DNA from: Qipengyuania sp. HL-TH1
GTDB taxonomy: Bacteria; Pseudomonadota; Alphaproteobacteria; Sphingomonadales; Sphingomonadaceae
Reading direction: 5' to 3'
Assembly: GCF_036365825.1 (NCBI RefSeq)
Contig: NZ_CP142674.1
Span: 69,763-133,762 of the forward strand
DNA length: 64,000 bases
Part shown: piece by piece, positions 4,379-51,730 of the stretch
Position numbering within the stretch: position 1 is the stretch's first letter
Layout of the letters: the number at the start of each line of letters is the position of its first letter
Notes under the pieces: generated by a model
The model's database searches: none
What the model was told of the DNA's origin: nothing
What the model saw: the letters and a program-made list of their open reading frames with translations, nothing else
Translations under genes and position numbers: made by a program

Positions 4379-4420
4379 AGCAGATATCCGGCATTTCGGT
4401 CGCCGGATATCTGCTTTTTT
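4379..4420 (+). terminator. Rho-independent terminator after the ADH gene
   Basis: A perfect 14-bp stem (4379-4392 with 4402-4415, AGCAGATATCCGGC and its complement) encloses a 9-nt loop. A run of five T follows directly (4416-4420). It lies about 55 bp past the ADH stop codon. Confidence 0.9.
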
Positions 4421-37493: not shown

Positions 37494-37836
37494 TGTCACC
37501 TCCAGCGACGTCGAATGCCGAGCGAAGGCTCGCGCGGCGGAAGAAAGCGATGAGAACGAAGGCGCCGCCGAGAACCGTGAAGACGATCGTCTGGAACTGC
37601 GCCTGCCGCGCCGCGTCGGCCGCGAGGAACCGCGCCGCGAGATTGTCGAGCTGCAACATGGTTCCTGACAGGGTGAAGCTGCCAAGGAGAATGAAGAACA
37701 GCGTCGCGACGCCCAGGGTCGCAAGCACGGTCGTGGCGATCCAACCTGTCAGCCGGAGGGCAACGACCATTGCGTCCTGACCTCGTTCGACCGGCGCGCG
37801 GGTCAGCGCCCGGTGTGCGAGAAGTTGAGCGTTCAT
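37486..37836 (-). CDS. Small membrane protein between traC and trbI (116 aa)
   Basis: The start overlaps the traC stop (4 bp) and the end overlaps the trbI start (8 bp). Two long hydrophobic helices are evident (VVALRLTGWIATTVLATLGVATLFFILLG and FQTIVFTVLGGAFVLIAFF), joined by a polar loop. The tail is acidic (AFDVAGGDND). I do not recognise a family. The place is not filled in the F operon, so it may be specific to alphaproteobacterial F-like systems (inference). Confidence 0.65.
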   Translation of the reverse strand: MNAQLLAHRALTRAPVERGQDAMVVALRLTGWIATTVLATLGVATLFFILLGSFTLSGTMLQLDNLAARFLAADAARQAQFQTIVFTVLGGAFVLIAFFRRASLRSAFDVAGGDND

Positions 37837-40388
37837 TCCGCCGCCTCCAGCATCTGATGGGTTTCGGGAAAGGCCACCGCCTCGATGGCATCGTGCATGG
37901 GGAAGCCCCGGTGGACGTAGTCCTCGATGTCGGCAAAGACGTCCGGGCTCGAAGAGTAGAGAGTGGCCGAGTAGCGATCGAGGACGAGCCGCCCGATGCT
38001 TTCCGTGTCCGGCCCGCGGATGAAGACATCCGAATAGTCCACTCCGTTGCGCTTGAGCGATCGAAGGAGTGCCTCGGTCATGTTGTCCATCTCGAAGCGA
38101 TCCGAATTGCGGAAGTCCGAGATCGTCTCGCCCTTCTGCTGGAGGATCAGGAACCAGTCCGAGTTTTCGAGCGCGGCGCGCGAACCTTCGGACTTGTAGT
38201 AATCGTGGATGGATTGCGTGGCGGTGATGAGCGAGCCGCCATACTTGCGGCAGGTGCGCGAATAGGTCTCAACGAAGTCGGCCATCGCCCCGCCCTTCAG
38301 CATCTGCCAAGCCTCGTCGATGATGAGCGGCTTGGGGATCGCACGGTCCATCCTGCGCATCACCTGCGAAGCGATGAACATGACCGATGTCAGGACCACG
38401 CCGCGCAGCTCCTCGCGTGTCGCGAGATCGGAAAGCTCGAAGACCGTGAGGTCGGCCGAAAGATCGAGATTGGCATCGCCGAGGAAGAACCGCCCGAAGG
38501 TGCCGGTCGATGCGAACGGCAGGAGCGAGGTCGCCAGATCGTAGGCGAACGGGTGCTCGGGCTGCTTGAGTGCCTCGATAATGTGATCGACCGTTCCGTC
38601 GCGACCCTGTGCCTCCCACACGGCATTCACCGCCTGGTCGATGAGGCCGCGCTCGGTATCGTTAAGCCGCGTCTCGTTGCGCGCCATCTGCGAGATAATT
38701 GACTTCAGCATCGCGAGGCAGTCGACCAGATAGTCGTCGTCGCCTTCGGCCAGCTCCTCGTCGATCATCCGGAACGGGTTGATCGAGATACCGGACGAGA
38801 GCTTGAACTCGGTGAAGGTGCCGCCAAGCGCCTTCGCCATGTGCTCGAAGCTGCGACCATCGTCGATGACGATCGTCTTGGCGCCGACGCCAGCGAAACT
38901 GGCGGTGAGGTCCTGCAAAAGCACCGACTTGCCCGACCCCGACTTGCCGGCGATCGCGACGTTGTGGTTGCCGGCGCCGTTCTGGAACGGCGACCAGAAC
39001 TGCGGTTGTCCGCGCCGCCCGACGAACAGGAGGTGCGGGATGTTCCCGCCGACATATTCACCCTGAATGGGAGCGATCGCCGCGACATTCGCGGAGCGCA
39101 TCGTGCGCAGACGCTTCATCCGCTTGTAATCGGAATCCAAGCCGTCGGCGAGCATCAGCGGGAAGTGGGCCATGAAAGCGGGTAGCTGGATGTGGGTCTC
39201 GTCGATCAGATCCCATCCGCTCGCCTTGTAGAGCGCCTTGAGGGTCCGCTCGCACGGTTCTCCACGGCCCTTCGGAGCGAGGATCGAGACGGCATAATAG
39301 CAGGAGACCAGCTTCTCCCCCTGCTTCACACGGTCTTGGATGAACTGCCACTCGGCCGCCTCGGTACGAAGCTTCGGAACGAGCTTCACGCCCTTCCCTT
39401 CCGCAAGCGAGCTGGTGCGCGCGAACTTGTAGCCCGCCTTGCTTTCCGAGGACTCCTGGCCGGGGATGATCCCGCAGACCGTCTGGAGCACCGGGCATGG
39501 CAGGTTCAGCTTCGGATTGAAGATATCGCCGATGATCTTCTGAGTATCCCAGGGAGCCCAGCGGTCGGGGAAGTTGCGCACCGCCATCGTCCGAATATCG
39601 AAACGCTCCGGAACGAAGTCCTTCATCTCAGGCACGCCCTCGACGGAGGTGCCGGTCGGGCGCAGCGACTGCGCATGGAGGATAAGTCGATCCTTCTCGA
39701 CATGAGTGACGAGATCGCGCCGCACGCACTGCTCGTTGATCGGATCGAAGCGGTTGTAGCCAGGCACTTCGTCGCCGGCACCGGTGGACGGCGCCAATAT
39801 CTCATCGAAGAAACGGATCAGGTCGGTCGGCTCGAACTGCCTGATCGGCACGTCGATCGATTCCAGCGCGGAAATTATGCCGTCACGCATCGTCACCAGA
39901 TCGTCGGTGGAGAGGCCGGATCCTTGGCTGATGCCGACCGACATGACGACGCGGTAATTGCGGACGAAGAACGGACCGTCGCTCGCGAGGGTCGACCATG
40001 CGCCGTTGCGCAGCTTGTCGAGACGGTGCTTGGCGAGCGTCTGGAAGACGCCCGAAGCTTTGAAGCGCGGCAGAGCCCAGTCCTGCAGCTTCTCTGCGAC
40101 GCGCGGAGAGGAATAGTTCGTCACGCTGAACTTGGTTCCGGGCAGGAGAATGTCCGAGAACAGCGAGCTGATGATGTCGTTCACCCGGTCGTTCGCACCG
40201 ACGAGGGGCGCGAGCTCGAGAATGAAGCCTTTCGACCGCACCTGATGGAAAATGCGCTTGCCTTCGTCGTAGGAACGATAGCCGAGGTAATGCGCGAGCA
40301 TGGGAACCTGCGGTGGGGCAGACTTGTGCTCAGGCTTGCGGCTGTCGCCGACTACCAGGTCCACGATGTTGCTGAATGCTTTCATCAT
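37833..40388 (-). CDS. traC: Type IV secretion ATPase TraC (VirB4-like)
   Basis: An 851-residue cytoplasmic ATPase energising pilus assembly. The N-terminal TraC-F domain (MLAHYLGYRSYDEGKRIFHQ) is followed by the P-loop AGKSGSGKSVLLQDL near residue 480. Next come Walker B-like PLIIDEAWQMLKGG near 675 and the family TQSIHDYY motif, which carries a sensor Gln. All key motifs are intact and the length is normal. A second Met two codons in is possible. It is 6 bp downstream of traV. Confidence 0.94.
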   Translation of the reverse strand: MMKAFSNIVDLVVGDSRKPEHKSAPPQVPMLAHYLGYRSYDEGKRIFHQVRSKGFILELAPLVGANDRVNDIISSLFSDILLPGTKFSVTNYSSPRVAEKLQDWALPRFKASGVFQTLAKHRLDKLRNGAWSTLASDGPFFVRNYRVVMSVGISQGSGLSTDDLVTMRDGIISALESIDVPIRQFEPTDLIRFFDEILAPSTGAGDEVPGYNRFDPINEQCVRRDLVTHVEKDRLILHAQSLRPTGTSVEGVPEMKDFVPERFDIRTMAVRNFPDRWAPWDTQKIIGDIFNPKLNLPCPVLQTVCGIIPGQESSESKAGYKFARTSSLAEGKGVKLVPKLRTEAAEWQFIQDRVKQGEKLVSCYYAVSILAPKGRGEPCERTLKALYKASGWDLIDETHIQLPAFMAHFPLMLADGLDSDYKRMKRLRTMRSANVAAIAPIQGEYVGGNIPHLLFVGRRGQPQFWSPFQNGAGNHNVAIAGKSGSGKSVLLQDLTASFAGVGAKTIVIDDGRSFEHMAKALGGTFTEFKLSSGISINPFRMIDEELAEGDDDYLVDCLAMLKSIISQMARNETRLNDTERGLIDQAVNAVWEAQGRDGTVDHIIEALKQPEHPFAYDLATSLLPFASTGTFGRFFLGDANLDLSADLTVFELSDLATREELRGVVLTSVMFIASQVMRRMDRAIPKPLIIDEAWQMLKGGAMADFVETYSRTCRKYGGSLITATQSIHDYYKSEGSRAALENSDWFLILQQKGETISDFRNSDRFEMDNMTEALLRSLKRNGVDYSDVFIRGPDTESIGRLVLDRYSATLYSSSPDVFADIEDYVHRGFPMHDAIEAVAFPETHQMLEAAE

Positions 40389-41918: not shown

Positions 41919-43232
41919 TCAGTTCCTGATGAAAGTGCCGTCAAGGAACACGACCTCGACGCTGGCGCCGGTGGGCATCTCGACGACTGGCTGATATTGC
42001 TCGGCGCGCTCGATGAGATATTCGGAGAGCATCTTTCCGGAATTTTCAGCGCCCCCTCCAAAACCACGGAGGGCAATGTCACCCGCGCTCGGGCTCGGAA
42101 GGCGTGAATCGCCATCGCGATCTTGCCCGACCGCCGCTATGGGAACACTGAAGGCGCTGTTCACCGCATTCCCGGCGCCACTAACGAGACCGGCAAGGAA
42201 GGCTTGCGTCGTGAGCGAACCTTCACGGCTAATGACGCGGCCGCGAATGCCGACCTTGCCGCCGAACGCGATGAAGCCCTGAACCTCGGACACCGCAAAG
42301 CGCCCACCGGGCTGAGCGCACGTCATGCGCTGTAGCTTCACGTAGACCTTCTCGGAGGAGAGGTCGCCATACGCCGCGCCGTTCACCATGCATCCCTGCA
42401 CACGCGTGGCGAGAAGGCGCCCCTCGCTGTAAACCGAGCGCGCGGGCCCGGTGATGCGCAGAAGCACCGGCAGCGGATCGCTCTGGCTACGGGTGTTCGT
42501 GGTCGCATCCACCCCCACCACCACGGTCGCTTTCGCGATCGAGTTGGGCGGGAGATAGTTCGGCGAATCCGTGTAGACCGCGGGCGACTTGGACGCGTCG
42601 ATGCGCGACCCGGTGCCGCCATTCGCGCTGAACGACACCATCTGGACGTCGTTGCTGCGTCGGGGCGGCTGAGGTGCCGCCGCGGCAGGCGATGAGGAGG
42701 GGGCAACCCCCAGCGCCTGCGCGGCGGCCACCGGCCCGGGAGCACTGGGGCGTGCATTGCCACGGCTCGCCTGCTGACGGAGCTGCTCGTTCTCGCGCTC
42801 GTATGCCTCGAGAACCCGCTGGCCATCGCGGGCCATAGCGGCGTTCTCGTTGCGCAGGCTGTCGACCTGCGACTGAAGCTCCATCATCTGCCCGGCTTGC
42901 GCTTCGACGCCCTTAAGCCGCTGGCCTTGGGAATTGATCTCGCCCTCGTACATGGCGACCCATTCCTGGTCGACGCGCTGCCGGTTCATGAGAGCATCGG
43001 TCGAGACCGTGGTCTCGGTTCCGTCGTCCATCGCCTGCTCGATCGTGTCGTCGGTATCGAGGACATACATCGACCCGGCGATCGCGATCACGCCGACCAG
43101 CCCATACATGAGCATCTTCTGACGCTTCTGCGTCTGATCGTTTTCCGCGATCAAGCCACTCTCGTCGAGCTCATCGTGCTCGTCCTGTTCCGCAGCGTCG
43201 AGATCCTTGGGTTTGCGCTTCAGGAAATCCAT
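41919..43232 (-). CDS. traB: Conjugal transfer protein TraB (VirB10-like)
   Basis: A 437-residue envelope-spanning scaffold. An acidic cytoplasmic tail precedes a transmembrane helix (MLMYGLVGVIAIAGSMYVL, about 40-58) and a coiled coil (about 95-160, LKGVEAQAGQMMELQSQVDSLRNE). A Pro/Ala-rich linker leads to the C-terminal beta-barrel domain (NYLPPNSIAKATVVVGVDA, GCMVNGAAYGDLSSEKVYVKLQRM, VVFLDGTF). All expected parts are in order. Confidence 0.93.
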   Translation of the reverse strand: MDFLKRKPKDLDAAEQDEHDELDESGLIAENDQTQKRQKMLMYGLVGVIAIAGSMYVLDTDDTIEQAMDDGTETTVSTDALMNRQRVDQEWVAMYEGEINSQGQRLKGVEAQAGQMMELQSQVDSLRNENAAMARDGQRVLEAYERENEQLRQQASRGNARPSAPGPVAAAQALGVAPSSSPAAAAPQPPRRSNDVQMVSFSANGGTGSRIDASKSPAVYTDSPNYLPPNSIAKATVVVGVDATTNTRSQSDPLPVLLRITGPARSVYSEGRLLATRVQGCMVNGAAYGDLSSEKVYVKLQRMTCAQPGGRFAVSEVQGFIAFGGKVGIRGRVISREGSLTTQAFLAGLVSGAGNAVNSAFSVPIAAVGQDRDGDSRLPSPSAGDIALRGFGGGAENSGKMLSEYLIERAEQYQPVVEMPTGASVEVVFLDGTFIRN

Positions 43233-43237
43233 CTCAG

Positions 43238-44035
43238 TTACCTTCCTGTGGGGACGACGACATAGGCGGCAGTCGCCTGCCCGCTCGCGAGGTCGCGGTT
43301 TGAAATGCTGACGGCGATCGCACCGTCGCCGGCGATGAGCTCTTCCTGCAGCGTCATGGGCGCCGCGCCGGTGTTCTCGATCCGGAGGACCTTGCCGGTC
43401 ATGGTGGGGCTGCGATATTCGCTGACCAGCTGCACCTTGATGTCGCCGACATTGACCGGGGCTCGTGCTGCGTCGCTGATCTCGAAGCCGGTTACGGGAC
43501 GCTGTTCGAACATCGCACGGACGAGACCTACCGCGCGATCGTCGAGTGACGCGGCCTGCAGCGTCTCTGCCTGCGGTTGCGGGTTCTCGATATCCGCATT
43601 GGCCACGAAAACCTGCAGCGCACCGTCGCCGGACACCTGACAGTCGAACTTGTAGACGTAGCCCTTCTGCGTCGTGCCGAAGAACGAGATGTTCGGCTTC
43701 GTGTACCCTTCGGGAACCGAGAGATAGATGTCGCCGCGGGTCGGCTCGTGAACGATCGCGAAGTCTTCCGCCTCGATCCCGGTTTGCACACGGGATACGG
43801 CGACGAACTGGTCGTCCTTGAGCGCGATCCGGGTGAGGTCGGACTTGGAGGCCTGGCAGCGCACCTCCCCGTTATCGACGGCGAGGATGTGTTCCTGTGC
43901 GAGCGCGGGGACGGCAGACATCACGAATGCGCCGGCAATGAGAGCGGCCCCGCCCAGGCGCGTCAGGTAGCAATCGAGACGCGAGGCGAGAAGGCCGCCC
44001 GACACGATCATGAGCGAGGAAATGGCCGGGTTCAT
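43238..44035 (-). CDS. traK: Conjugal transfer protein TraK (VirB9-like)
   Basis: A 265-residue secretin-like core protein. The signal peptide lies inside a longer N-terminus (LIAGAFVMSAVPALAQEH), so the true start may be internal; ATG 44035 is kept because it overlaps the traE stop (ATGA). The mature region (VYKFDCQVSGDGALQVFV, LVSEYRSPTMTGKVLRIENTGAAPM) matches TraK, which forms the outer-membrane ring with TraV and TraB. Confidence 0.9.
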   Translation of the reverse strand: MNPAISSLMIVSGGLLASRLDCYLTRLGGAALIAGAFVMSAVPALAQEHILAVDNGEVRCQASKSDLTRIALKDDQFVAVSRVQTGIEAEDFAIVHEPTRGDIYLSVPEGYTKPNISFFGTTQKGYVYKFDCQVSGDGALQVFVANADIENPQPQAETLQAASLDDRAVGLVRAMFEQRPVTGFEISDAARAPVNVGDIKVQLVSEYRSPTMTGKVLRIENTGAAPMTLQEELIAGDGAIAVSISNRDLASGQATAAYVVVPTGR

Positions 44036-44595
44036 TCTTCCTCTCCTTCTTTCACGACGACGCCGAAACCCTTCAGGCGGAGCGAGACGCCGGTGTATTT
44101 CCAGTGGAACTCGAAGACCTTGTGTTCGCGGCGCACATCGCGCGAACCCACGATCGTATGGAGGACGCCGCCGACTTGGCTGGTGAGCTCGTCGGGGTTC
44201 GTCCTGATCCAGTCGATGGTGACGAACTGGGTGACCTGCGAGCCTTCCTGCTCCGCCATGATCTCCATCAGCTTCGCCTTGAGCGCGCCGCGCGATTCCG
44301 GTGCGGCGATGGCGACGATGCCATCAAGCCAGTATTGGAGCGTTTCGGGCGAGCGGTTGAGCGCGAGCTGCGCAGTGTCACGGGTCACCGCCTCGAGATA
44401 TTCGGGCGTGACCGATGAGGAGCTCAGCGTCATTTCGTTGGAAAGGATCGGCTGCAGCACCACTTCCCGATCGCGGGTCGATGCGGCCGTGAACATCACC
44501 ACGACGAGGATGCCGAGAACGATGCAGATGAGCGCAAGAAGGTTGCGCTGTTTCAGCGTCCGTTGTGACGCCTCGTGAGCAAGAGATAGTTCCAT
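44032..44595 (-). CDS. traE: Pilus assembly protein TraE (VirB5/8-like)
   Basis: A 187-residue inner-membrane protein with one N-terminal helix (LLALICIVLGILVVVMFTAA) and a periplasmic domain (VVLQPILSNEMTLSSSSVTPEYLEAVTRD, FVTIDWIRTNPDELTS, WKYTGVSLRLKGFGVVV). Length and pattern fit F TraE. Only one base separates it from the traL stop. Confidence 0.92.
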   Translation of the reverse strand: MELSLAHEASQRTLKQRNLLALICIVLGILVVVMFTAASTRDREVVLQPILSNEMTLSSSSVTPEYLEAVTRDTAQLALNRSPETLQYWLDGIVAIAAPESRGALKAKLMEIMAEQEGSQVTQFVTIDWIRTNPDELTSQVGGVLHTIVGSRDVRREHKVFEFHWKYTGVSLRLKGFGVVVKEGEEE

Positions 44596-44596
44596 G

Positions 44597-44881
44597 TCAG
44601 CCCGCCATCACACGAAGATGAGAAGGCGGAGCGACCTTCAGACCAAAGAAACCGCCCGGCAGATGCCAATAGGCAAAGTGCAGGACCCAATACATCGAAC
44701 GCCCGGCTTTAAGTTTGCGATAGAAAAACCATGCAGCGACACTGAGGAGAAGTCCGATAACGATGTGCTGCGCGAGAATTCCCCAACCGAACGGAATCAG
44801 CATTATGAGGAATTCATCCAGCGTCCAGAACCCGATGAGCTCGGGGTCGTCGAGATGTCTTGGGATGGAATATTGGTCCAA
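44597..44881 (-). CDS. traL: Pilus assembly protein TraL
   Basis: A 94-residue inner-membrane protein beginning LDQYSIPRHLDDPELIGFWTLDEFLIML, the usual TraL N-terminus, with a second hydrophobic segment HIVIGLLLSVAAWFFY. The TTG at 44881 is the start in register with the family; in-frame sequence further upstream is the leader after traA. The weak TTG codon and the hairpin just upstream may keep TraL low relative to pilin. Confidence 0.9.
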   Translation of the reverse strand: MDQYSIPRHLDDPELIGFWTLDEFLIMLIPFGWGILAQHIVIGLLLSVAAWFFYRKLKAGRSMYWVLHFAYWHLPGGFFGLKVAPPSHLRVMAG

Positions 44882-44900
44882 AGGTCGTCTCCGCCAGTCA

Positions 44901-44943
44901 GGGGGCGGCTGCGTCTCGCTGGCGATCAGCAGCCCGCGCCCCC
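44901..44943 (-). promoter_or_regulatory. GC-rich hairpin between traA and traL
   Basis: In the transcript, GGGGGC pairs with GCCCCC and GGCTGC with GCAGCC (44901-44912 with 44929-44943, a 3-nt CGC bulge on one arm). This makes a 12-bp GC stem with a 16-nt loop. No T-run follows, so it is more likely an mRNA-processing/stability or partial attenuation element than a full terminator. It lies 23 bp after the pilin stop and 19 bp before the traL start. Confidence 0.6.
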
Positions 44944-44966
44944 GTGGAGAGGGTCCGATCGAGCGA

Positions 44967-45284
44967 TCAGACCGTGCCGGTGATCGTTGAGGTGACGATC
45001 GGCACGCCGGTGCCGGCACCGACGCCCACCCCGACCGGGATTGCCACTTGGCCGAGCGAGAAGCGTCCGGAGGCAAGCGCCACGATGCCGCCGGCGAGCG
45101 ACAGCACGGTGATGATCTTACCGCCTGAGCCTTCGAGGAAGTCGGTGAACTGCGTTAGCGCGGTGTCGAACGTGGTGTCGGTACCGGCCATCGCGGCGTC
45201 GATCCCGAACACGCTCATCCCGGCCACTGCAGCCAGGGCGACGGCGAGGTTCGCGCCACCCTTTTTGAGATCGAGTGCTTTCAT
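44967..45284 (-). CDS. traA: F-type pilin TraA
   Basis: The first gene of the operon encodes a 105-residue prepilin. A Lys-rich leader and hydrophobic segment (NLAVALAAVAGMSVFGI) end in the cleavage-like site AAMA-GTDTT. The mature ~70 residues have the two-helix pilin pattern: DTALTQFTDFLEGSGGKIITVLSLAGGIVALASG, a basic/Gly loop, and VAIPVGVGVGAGTGVPIV. ATG 45284 has AGAAGGGA 7 nt upstream, but that site is buried in a hairpin. An in-frame ATG at 45362 would add 26 residues and is thought unlikely. Confidence 0.9.
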   Translation of the reverse strand: MKALDLKKGGANLAVALAAVAGMSVFGIDAAMAGTDTTFDTALTQFTDFLEGSGGKIITVLSLAGGIVALASGRFSLGQVAIPVGVGVGAGTGVPIVTSTITGTV

Positions 45285-45289
45285 TGTCT

Positions 45290-45338
45290 TTCCCTTCTGG
45301 TTTGACGAACAGCGCGATGCGCCAAGACCAGAAGGGAA
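45290..45338 (-). promoter_or_regulatory. Hairpin that sequesters the traA ribosome-binding site
   Basis: A perfect 12-bp inverted repeat (TTCCCTTCTGGT and ACCAGAAGGGAA on the transcript, 45338-45327 with 45301-45290) spans a 25-nt loop that can itself form a small GCGC stem. The 3' arm is the Shine-Dalgarno sequence of traA, with the AUG 5 nt beyond the arm. Folding would hide the ribosome-binding site, so pilin translation needs opening by temperature, a ligand, an RNA or a protein. No T-run follows, arguing against a terminator. Confidence 0.7.
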
Positions 45339-45635
45339 GAACGGGAACCTTTTCTCAACCAATTCGTCGCAAGGACTGACCTTTCAAGGTGCGAATCGCG
45401 CTTTGTCGATCCGACTGGTCAAAAAGACTGCACCACTAGGGATTAAATAATAAACCGGGTGGCATTCCGTTTGGGATCTATTGGCACGGAATCAGGACCA
45501 CCCCGGAATGAACGCGGGTATGGCTGGCCTGTATGCAGCGCCGACTCTCAAGGCTAGACACAAAGCTGATTCAACGACGGTTCGACTCGCAGACTGATCG
45601 CACCCGAAAGAGAATCCAGGGGGCGAGGAAGCGTC

Positions 45636-46004
45636 ATGTCGAGCGACAGCGAGGTTGTGCACGAGTTGCTGCTGGGCGAGCAGCCATTTGCAATTATTGC
45701 GGAAGCGATCCGCGTGCTAACCGTCGAACGGTTGAAATTTCAGCGGCTTAGAGACGTGATTCTTGAGGCGATCAAAGATCCCCCGAAGCCAATGGATGAA
45801 CAGGTTGCGTTGTTCAAGAACCAGTTCCCACTCGATGGCCACGTAAGAATTTATCTTCGCTTGTCCCGATCGCTCAATTCCGAACTGGAAGCGCTCAAAA
45901 TGGACCTATGCCAAAAACTGGATGAGAACTGCGGTGTACGTGAGACGGTTATCTTCTGTGCATTGTCGATCGCCCAGAGGAAAGATTCCACTTGCCACGG
46001 TTAA
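45636..46004 (+). CDS. Hypothetical protein, divergent from the tra operon (122 aa)
   Basis: An acidic, helical, soluble protein (AIIAEAIRVLTVERLKFQRLRDVILEAIKD) whose start is preceded by GGGGCGAGGAAG at usable spacing. No family is recognised. It is divergent from traA with a 350-bp gap and lies upstream of an HTH-like gene, so a role in tra control or plasmid processing is plausible but unproven. Confidence 0.55.
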   Translation: MSSDSEVVHELLLGEQPFAIIAEAIRVLTVERLKFQRLRDVILEAIKDPPKPMDEQVALFKNQFPLDGHVRIYLRLSRSLNSELEALKMDLCQKLDENCGVRETVIFCALSIAQRKDSTCHG

Positions 46005-46053
46005 GGGCTTTTGCGCAGTATGCATTTGCATAGGTCGCGTTTAGGGAGGGATC

Positions 46054-46545
46054 ATGCGCGAGGGATCGAACACCGTGGTTGTCGGACGCTGTGATCAGCT
46101 CCAGCGGGAATACGCTGTTCTCATCCGACGACAAATGGAGAAGCGCGGATTGAGCGTGCGGAAACTCGCAGAACGAGGTGTCATTCGTCAAAGCCATCGC
46201 AATCGCTTTTTTGACCGCATTGCCCAGGGCACATTGCCGCTTGCGGAATTCCATGCGGTGACCTCGCATTTGGAGATCGATCCTATCCGTGCGGCAATCA
46301 CCGTACAGTGTTTTACCGATGCAACATCCTACGAGGACCCATGCTGCGAAACCTCAGCCATGGTGGCAGTTGCCATGGCGACGCACCTTCCTGAGGAACT
46401 GGCTGCCTGCGAAGGTAATTTCGAAACCATCCGGAGCGAACTTTGCGACGGTATAGCGAAGAACACTTCCTCGGCCATTGCCAAGTATCATCGCAAGCTG
46501 GAGGAAAGGCGCAATGGCGCCGACTTCGATTTCGCCTACGGCTGA
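46054..46545 (+). CDS. Helix-turn-helix regulator-like protein (163 aa)
   Basis: The N-terminal 70 residues resemble a Cro/C1-type HTH: YAVLIRRQMEKRGLSVRKLAERGVIRQSHRNRFFDRIAQGTLPLAEFHAVTSHLEIDP has the expected helix, turn and recognition-helix spacing. The remainder is helical with three Cys. GGAGG precedes the ATG. Its place beside the divergent tra promoter suggests it controls transfer. Confidence 0.6.
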   Translation: MREGSNTVVVGRCDQLQREYAVLIRRQMEKRGLSVRKLAERGVIRQSHRNRFFDRIAQGTLPLAEFHAVTSHLEIDPIRAAITVQCFTDATSYEDPCCETSAMVAVAMATHLPEELAACEGNFETIRSELCDGIAKNTSSAIAKYHRKLEERRNGADFDFAYG

Positions 46546-51590: not shown

Positions 51591-51688
51591 CAATTTCAGG
51601 CTCATTTTCCTGCCCGTGTTCTCCCGCACCTGGAAGCCAGCCCCTGCTGCGGTCTCTAGTTTGAGATCCTCGTCAGGACACCTCTTGC

Positions 51689-51730
51689 ATACTGGCAGGG
51701 AGTATGACAAGATACTCCCTGCCAGTATGA
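51689..51730. promoter_or_regulatory. 18-bp perfect inverted repeat upstream of frmA (candidate FrmR site)
   Basis: CATACTGGCAGGGAGTAT (51689-51706) is repeated in exact inverse at 51713-51730 with a 6-nt spacer (GACAAG). Each arm is itself a CsoR-type operator-like unit (ATACT-GC/G tract-AGTAT). The pair begins about 115 bp before frmA. It could be a double operator or, if transcribed, a strong hairpin between frmR and frmA; no T-run follows. Confidence 0.7.

Follow-up and report, generated by a model that had tools for sequence, protein, structure and literature searches.

A predicted hairpin sequestering the Shine-Dalgarno sequence of an F-type pilin gene recurs in many related leaders and may act as a brake on pilin synthesis

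Why does the ribosome-binding site of a pilin gene coincide with one arm of a perfect inverted repeat, and what would this mean for pilin synthesis? The question is raised by the start of traA on the minus strand of the 64,000-nucleotide stretch of a marine sphingomonad plasmid analysed here (the window; 69763-133762 on contig C1 of its genome). In the traA sense, the 5' (anti-SD) arm TTCCCTTCTGGT (45338-45327) is followed by a 25-nt inter-arm region (45302..45326), by the 3' arm ACCAGAAGGGAA (45301-45290), which holds the Shine-Dalgarno (SD) core AAGG, and then by AGACA and the ATG (45284-45282). The arms form an exact inverted repeat, complementary at 12 of 12 positions, and the SD arm ends 5 nt ahead of the ATG, confirming the geometry and spacing described in a sequence-only reading of this DNA. 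The SD is modest, the 4-nt AAGG being its longest exact match to AAGGAGGTGA. In the predicted fold of the window leader the stem is lengthened, past one bulged C, by pairing of 45320-45325 with 45302-45307 (TTGGCG/CGTCAA), and in the consensus of the group of leaders to which the window's leader belongs (the window group) a small inner helix pairs 45319-45323 with 45311-45315 (GGCGC/GCGCU). The window has four distinct perfect inverted repeats that reach 12 bp or more with a loop no longer than 40 nt, against one in total in six Markov shuffles of it. Elsewhere in the window, 18-bp arms in perfect inverted repeat enclose a 6-nt loop at 51688-51729, and a perfect 14-bp repeat, T-rich at its 3' end and a probable intrinsic terminator, lies at 4379-4415; for the traA hairpin itself no terminator was found, and that reading was rejected. 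Directly upstream of the hairpin lies TTGAGAAAA (45350..45358, minus strand), of which TTGAGAAA is unchanged across 10 aligned leaders and which may be a standby site, part of a promoter or something else.

The gene behind this leader, traA (44967..45284, minus strand, 105 aa), was assigned to the F-type pilins (TrbC/VirB2-like) from profile matches and context. Its matches lie under the model cut-offs (Pfam TrbC/VirB2, 24.7 bits, cut-off 27.9; NCBIfam TraA, 29.3, cut-off 50), and its position, size and neighbours agree with a pilin, many plasmid relatives being annotated as TrbC/VirB2 family. It heads an F-type operon in which clear traL (44597..44881, minus strand), traE (44032-44595), traK (43238-44035), traB (41919-43232) and traC (37833-40388) come after, the last four recognized by profile match or annotation and traL placed by the annotation of plasmid plsm_A (133,762 bases, Qipengyuania sp. 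HL-TH1), in which 801 bases around traA are identical. Since traL has its own annotated start, a TTG at 44881, 85 nt beyond the traA stop, the hairpin directly concerns the pilin and not the whole operon; the earlier remark that the first gene of the whole transfer operon would be off by default is thus, if read as applying to the operon, not borne out, traA alone being directly affected.

The predicted stability of the leader is high. The 76-nt traA leader folds at -29.4 kcal/mol, as good a value being reached by none of 200 shuffles (mean -17.3, sd 3.0; z -4), and the total fold energy of its 161-nt context is ordinary (z -1.6, matched by 11 of 200 shuffles). The 12 designated pairs have mean probabilities of 0.93-0.98 across 18 upstream and downstream contexts, and opening the traA SD costs, in silico, 14.2 kcal/mol for the 4-nt core and 15.8 kcal/mol for the 6-nt core, compared with a mean of 3.0 kcal/mol (sd 1.5, maximum 6.2) for 43 other SD-bearing ORFs of the window; traA is absent from that set because a longer overlapping ORF was chosen by rule, and its 14.2 comes from the pilin-cluster analysis described below. 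In the predicted RNA the traA SD is therefore base-paired, as in an SD-sequestering cis element, and the claim that it is buried in a hairpin stands at the level of prediction, with an opening cost of 14-16 kcal/mol. An Rfam search of 44500-46200, riboswitches included, gave a single match, at 14.4 bits (cut-off 39), inside traA and leaving the hairpin uncovered.

Relatives were taken from the best 80 of 340 related loci, in named genomes, together with 30 loci from genomes of the same family, giving 110 loci; of 397 genomes in that family, 80 have a pilin relative, and none was found in viral contigs. With the window, these loci yielded 79 unique leaders and 53 clusters at 75% identity, start codons being assigned by rule, and ORFs from the same loci served as controls (80 of 189 control clusters for the opening-energy comparison). 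An earlier measure, SD pairing probability with over-coarse clustering, left pilin and control leaders unseparated (14 clusters against 21 controls, p 0.055). The SD opening energy, adopted with finer clusters after that p value had been seen and applied also to two leaders with a 3-nt SD match that the pairing-probability test had excluded, had a median of 5.4 kcal/mol in pilin clusters and 3.6 in controls (Mann-Whitney 1e-4), the window leader's 14.2 kcal/mol being the highest among the 53 pilin clusters. Relative to shuffles of its own upstream part, the SD was hidden at p ≤ 0.05 in 23 of the 53 pilin clusters compared with 6 of 80 control ORFs, and a Watson-Crick-only stem score was significant in 15 of the 53 and exceeded that of 189 controls (p 1e-4). 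Conversely, 13 of the 53 clusters, one chromosomal group included, show no special SD sequestration (p ≥ 0.6), indicating that the lock characterises the family without being present in each of its members. The sequence-only reading had named lack of stem conservation in homologous leaders as a ground for refutation; many homologous leaders whose sequence has changed still hide the SD, and so the family, taken as a class, does not show this outcome. The leaders of pNL1 and pCAR3 are predicted to hide the SD in hairpins unlike that of the window, at an opening cost of 6.0 and 7.3 kcal/mol, respectively. Four pilin relatives (L104, L105, L106 and L108) carry a leader GAGGAA complementary to a TTCCTC that adjoins the start codon, a pairing that would involve the ATG and not the SD.

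Evidence for paired changes that keep the stem, proposed earlier as a check, comes from comparisons across groups and is weak within the window group. This group (12 sequences, 11 distinct) shows almost no variation in the SD arm. A two-sided change is seen in a single pair of the inner helix and in no pair of the outer stem, where 6 of 12 deviate solely via unpaired cells; the comparison with shuffles is not striking, the covariation score being reached in 15 of 500 shuffles and the percentage paired in 152 of 500. RNAalifold structures from sequence alignments hold one two-sided pair apiece. Subsets of the 79 leaders were picked by eye for A7 and for the group tests, L056 and L077 lying outside A7. 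Because the leader groups are too divergent to align, an alignment-free test was used, in which leaders were cut in two and own halves were compared with swapped halves, row and column means being removed. Own halves beat swapped halves by 3.4-5.0 kcal/mol, with z between -7.2 and -9.3 in 41 clusters under 60% identity at five cut points and down to -10.4 over the test as a whole, compared with a gain of 0.7-1.5 kcal/mol in controls that is itself not zero (z -1.8 to -3.8; 80 of 148 controls, three cut points). For the SD arm alone, the gain was 2.65 (z -7.2), with 1.6-1.8 for narrower arms (z -5.0 to -5.6), versus a likewise non-zero 0.54 (z -2.4) in 148 controls, and the window leader ranks first. 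Inside groups the swap test was significant in A (z -3.3 to -4.0) and marginal in C, and in group B own arms paired no better than swapped arms. Pairing of the SD stem is retained despite sequence change across groups; within groups this signal is weak or absent.

Covariance models reflect the same divergence. Model R1 was built on the window group. Its matches fell in 2 of 298 family genomes, both at traA leaders, and, given the 80 genomes with pilin relatives, it covers just a small part of them. Over 72 loci it picked up the group it was built on plus a single weak match (L074, E 0.4), and group models scarcely recognise each other. Among six plasmid records R1 found the window's plasmid and three relatives (L126, L127 and L128) and missed pNL1 and pCAR3, a poor held-out test because the leaders of L126 and L128 equal, by eye, the training leaders L005 and L020, leaving L127 as the sole new leader recognized. 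Model R2 matched 12 of 296 genomes, with five strong places, three upstream of traA loci and two in G502, and eight weak matches (E 0.001-0.01) that were treated as chance.

Taken with the mutually matching arms, the sequence and the predicted stability lead us to regard it as likely that the traA leader is a conserved cis-acting hairpin with the ribosome-binding site as its 3' arm and that the full transcript is poorly translated, constituting a brake on pilin synthesis; this supposes that transcription runs through both arms and that translation is then low. Against it, the single promoter-like site reported on the traA strand (45720-45693) is far upstream, within the neighbouring ORF. The earlier interpretation as a whole is thus partly supported.

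Several alternatives were weighed against this brake. The one that survives best, although we think it unlikely, is protection from read-through, in which the traA promoter starts inside the 5' arm or the loop and only read-through transcripts from upstream would be folded and silent. A truncated transcript starting at -50 indeed lowers SD opening to 5.2 kcal/mol, and a start at -46, 8 nt into the 5' arm, frees the SD (1.2 kcal/mol), making the transcription start site decisive; in addition, TTGAGA at -74, which we take to match five of the six letters of a -35 box, is invariant in 10 aligned leaders. However, by eye no acceptable -10 lies 16-19 nt past TTGAGA, and no promoter-like site is reported there. 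Moreover, since the neighbouring genes are divergent, read-through from them into traA is not expected.

Control by an antisense or small RNA has a precedent in F-like plasmids, where, according to PMC7690428, FinP conceals the ribosome site of traJ, so that RNA structure at a ribosome-binding site controls a transfer gene of an F-type system post-transcriptionally. The F plasmid traJ leader is also fairly closed in silico (7.0 kcal/mol), and an Hfq gene is present in the genome, on another contig. FinOP, however, acts on the activator gene traJ and needs FinP and FinO, whereas here an intrinsic lock is predicted on the pilin gene, and the F plasmid traA leader has no comparable lock (4.0 kcal/mol). 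The genome (G000) gave no FinO/ProQ match, the E. coli positive control being matched, and FinOP-type fertility inhibition was therefore rejected; a CsrA-repressed leader was likewise rejected, with no CsrA match in the genome. The window contains no second copy of the 3' arm (at most 2 mismatches, partner arm aside) or of the loop region (at most 3), and transcription of the divergent genes leads away from the hairpin. Lastly, the letters of the apical loop vary among leaders, which favours a structure-specific protein or a choice of 5' end over a loop-specific antisense RNA. We consider antisense control rather improbable.

If the repeat were a DNA site such as a regulator's operator, its overlap with the SD would be incidental, and the divergent regulatory region with its candidate HTH gene would be a suitable place for it. 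Yet the arm sequences differ between groups while matching each other, and the repeat stays on the SD. Imperfect stems, moreover, contain G-U and A-C in a ratio of 77:41 in pilin leaders and 117:124 in controls (p 0.003; coarser clusters 49:30, p 0.04; per-leader G-U sign test p 0.06), an excess of G-U that favours pairing in RNA of the traA sense; an energy-based sense/antisense comparison did not separate pilin leaders from controls. An incidental DNA site is, on these grounds, quite improbable.

Opening of the stem by translation of an upstream reading frame has very little probability: in the window, a TTG at -78 begins a frame that stays open as far as traA, but no upstream frame with ATG or GTG enters the window hairpin, the 10 relatives checked have such frames only in part and none with an SD, and in L007 the traA frame is interrupted at -21, so that coupling was rejected for want of an SD-bearing upstream frame into the hairpin in the window and these relatives. 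Although an SD held in a stem is the usual anatomy of RNA thermometers, in which warming would melt the stem and release the SD, the traA stem is perfect, far too stable and devoid of weak points (opening 17.2 kcal/mol at 30 °C, 14.8 at 42 °C and 13.2 at 50 °C), and a thermometer, hardly credible for an SD that stays closed in silico over the growth temperature range, was rejected together with temperature as the opening signal suggested earlier.

What, then, could release the putative brake on pilin synthesis? An opening cost of 14-16 kcal/mol is too high for spontaneous opening, and pilin would be made only once the stem is opened or if the transcript lacks the 5' arm through a start or cleavage inside the stem. 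By the quantitative rules for RNA phage starts, a stem this stable would leave a full-length leader nearly silent. The exclusion of heat, the variable loop, the missing FinO/ProQ and CsrA matches and the freeing of the SD by a start or cleavage inside the 5' arm leave two main options, a trans-acting factor or a choice of 5' end. The brake itself would operate downstream of whatever governs transcription at the divergent promoter region.

From their position, the two divergent ORFs are natural candidates for a trans-acting factor. The first (45636..46004, plus strand, 122 aa) belongs to no family found by profile search, and the second (46054..46545, plus strand, 163 aa) is a possible Cro/C1-type HTH protein and candidate regulator; both are conserved, relatives in the 110 loci (window copies counted, mostly with 1.5 kb of flank) numbering 31 and 44, respectively. 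The Cro/C1-type HTH model matched 3 of 18 members of the 163-aa family weakly and the window's member not at all, and on these weak matches the 163-aa protein is at least as likely to be a DNA-binding regulator of a repeat array as an RNA-binding protein. ORFs of similar size and the same divergent layout are found in pNL1 and pCAR3.

The repeat array in question has a period of ~22 bp and is seen by autocorrelation as a weak trace at 45436..45524 in the window, where lag 22 is not the top one (z 1.6) and a repeat search finds no array. It is clear in related elements: in L014 (1212-1386), L083 (1235-1366) and L011 (1238-1384) the interval from traA to the divergent gene contains direct repeats, the unit sequence varying between elements and the period remaining constant. 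The top autocorrelation lag is 20-23 or 40-46 in 47 of 53 clusters. In five comparison stretches this is so for 4, 6, 9, 16 and 24 of 52-53, the largest count belonging to the traA coding part. The array resembles a set of operators controlling transfer. On the plus strand at 45344-45368, GGAACC, 15 nt and CGTC point at the divergent genes and resemble an EcfG general-stress promoter; GGAACC is missing from aligned Novosphingobium-type leaders.

SD-sequestering translational hairpins are known at RNA phage starts and in ribosomal-protein operons, and the traA leader resembles them in having its SD in a stem that has to open before translation can start; it differs in concerning an F-type pilin family, in its host group and in its recurrence through changing sequence. 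In the literature searched, with few subscription journals and with PMC7690428 included, no description of such a pilin-leader element was found. Comparable hairpins of different sequence at many related pilin genes suggest a shared putative brake on pilus production. More tentatively, and as a possibility that we hold to be rather unlikely, F-type conjugative elements of Sphingomonadales (apparently also those in assemblies labelled Hyphomonas and Ponticaulis) may share a rapidly diverging, refolding SD-lock checkpoint on pilin that is opened by an element-encoded factor, for example the divergent 122-aa or 163-aa protein, so that pilin synthesis would wait until the transfer apparatus has been licensed. 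How much pilin is made sets limits to the number of pili, to exposure to pilus phages and to transfer, and the putative brake on traA, if real, would add to FinOP/traJ a second F-type hold at translation, here acting directly at the pilin.
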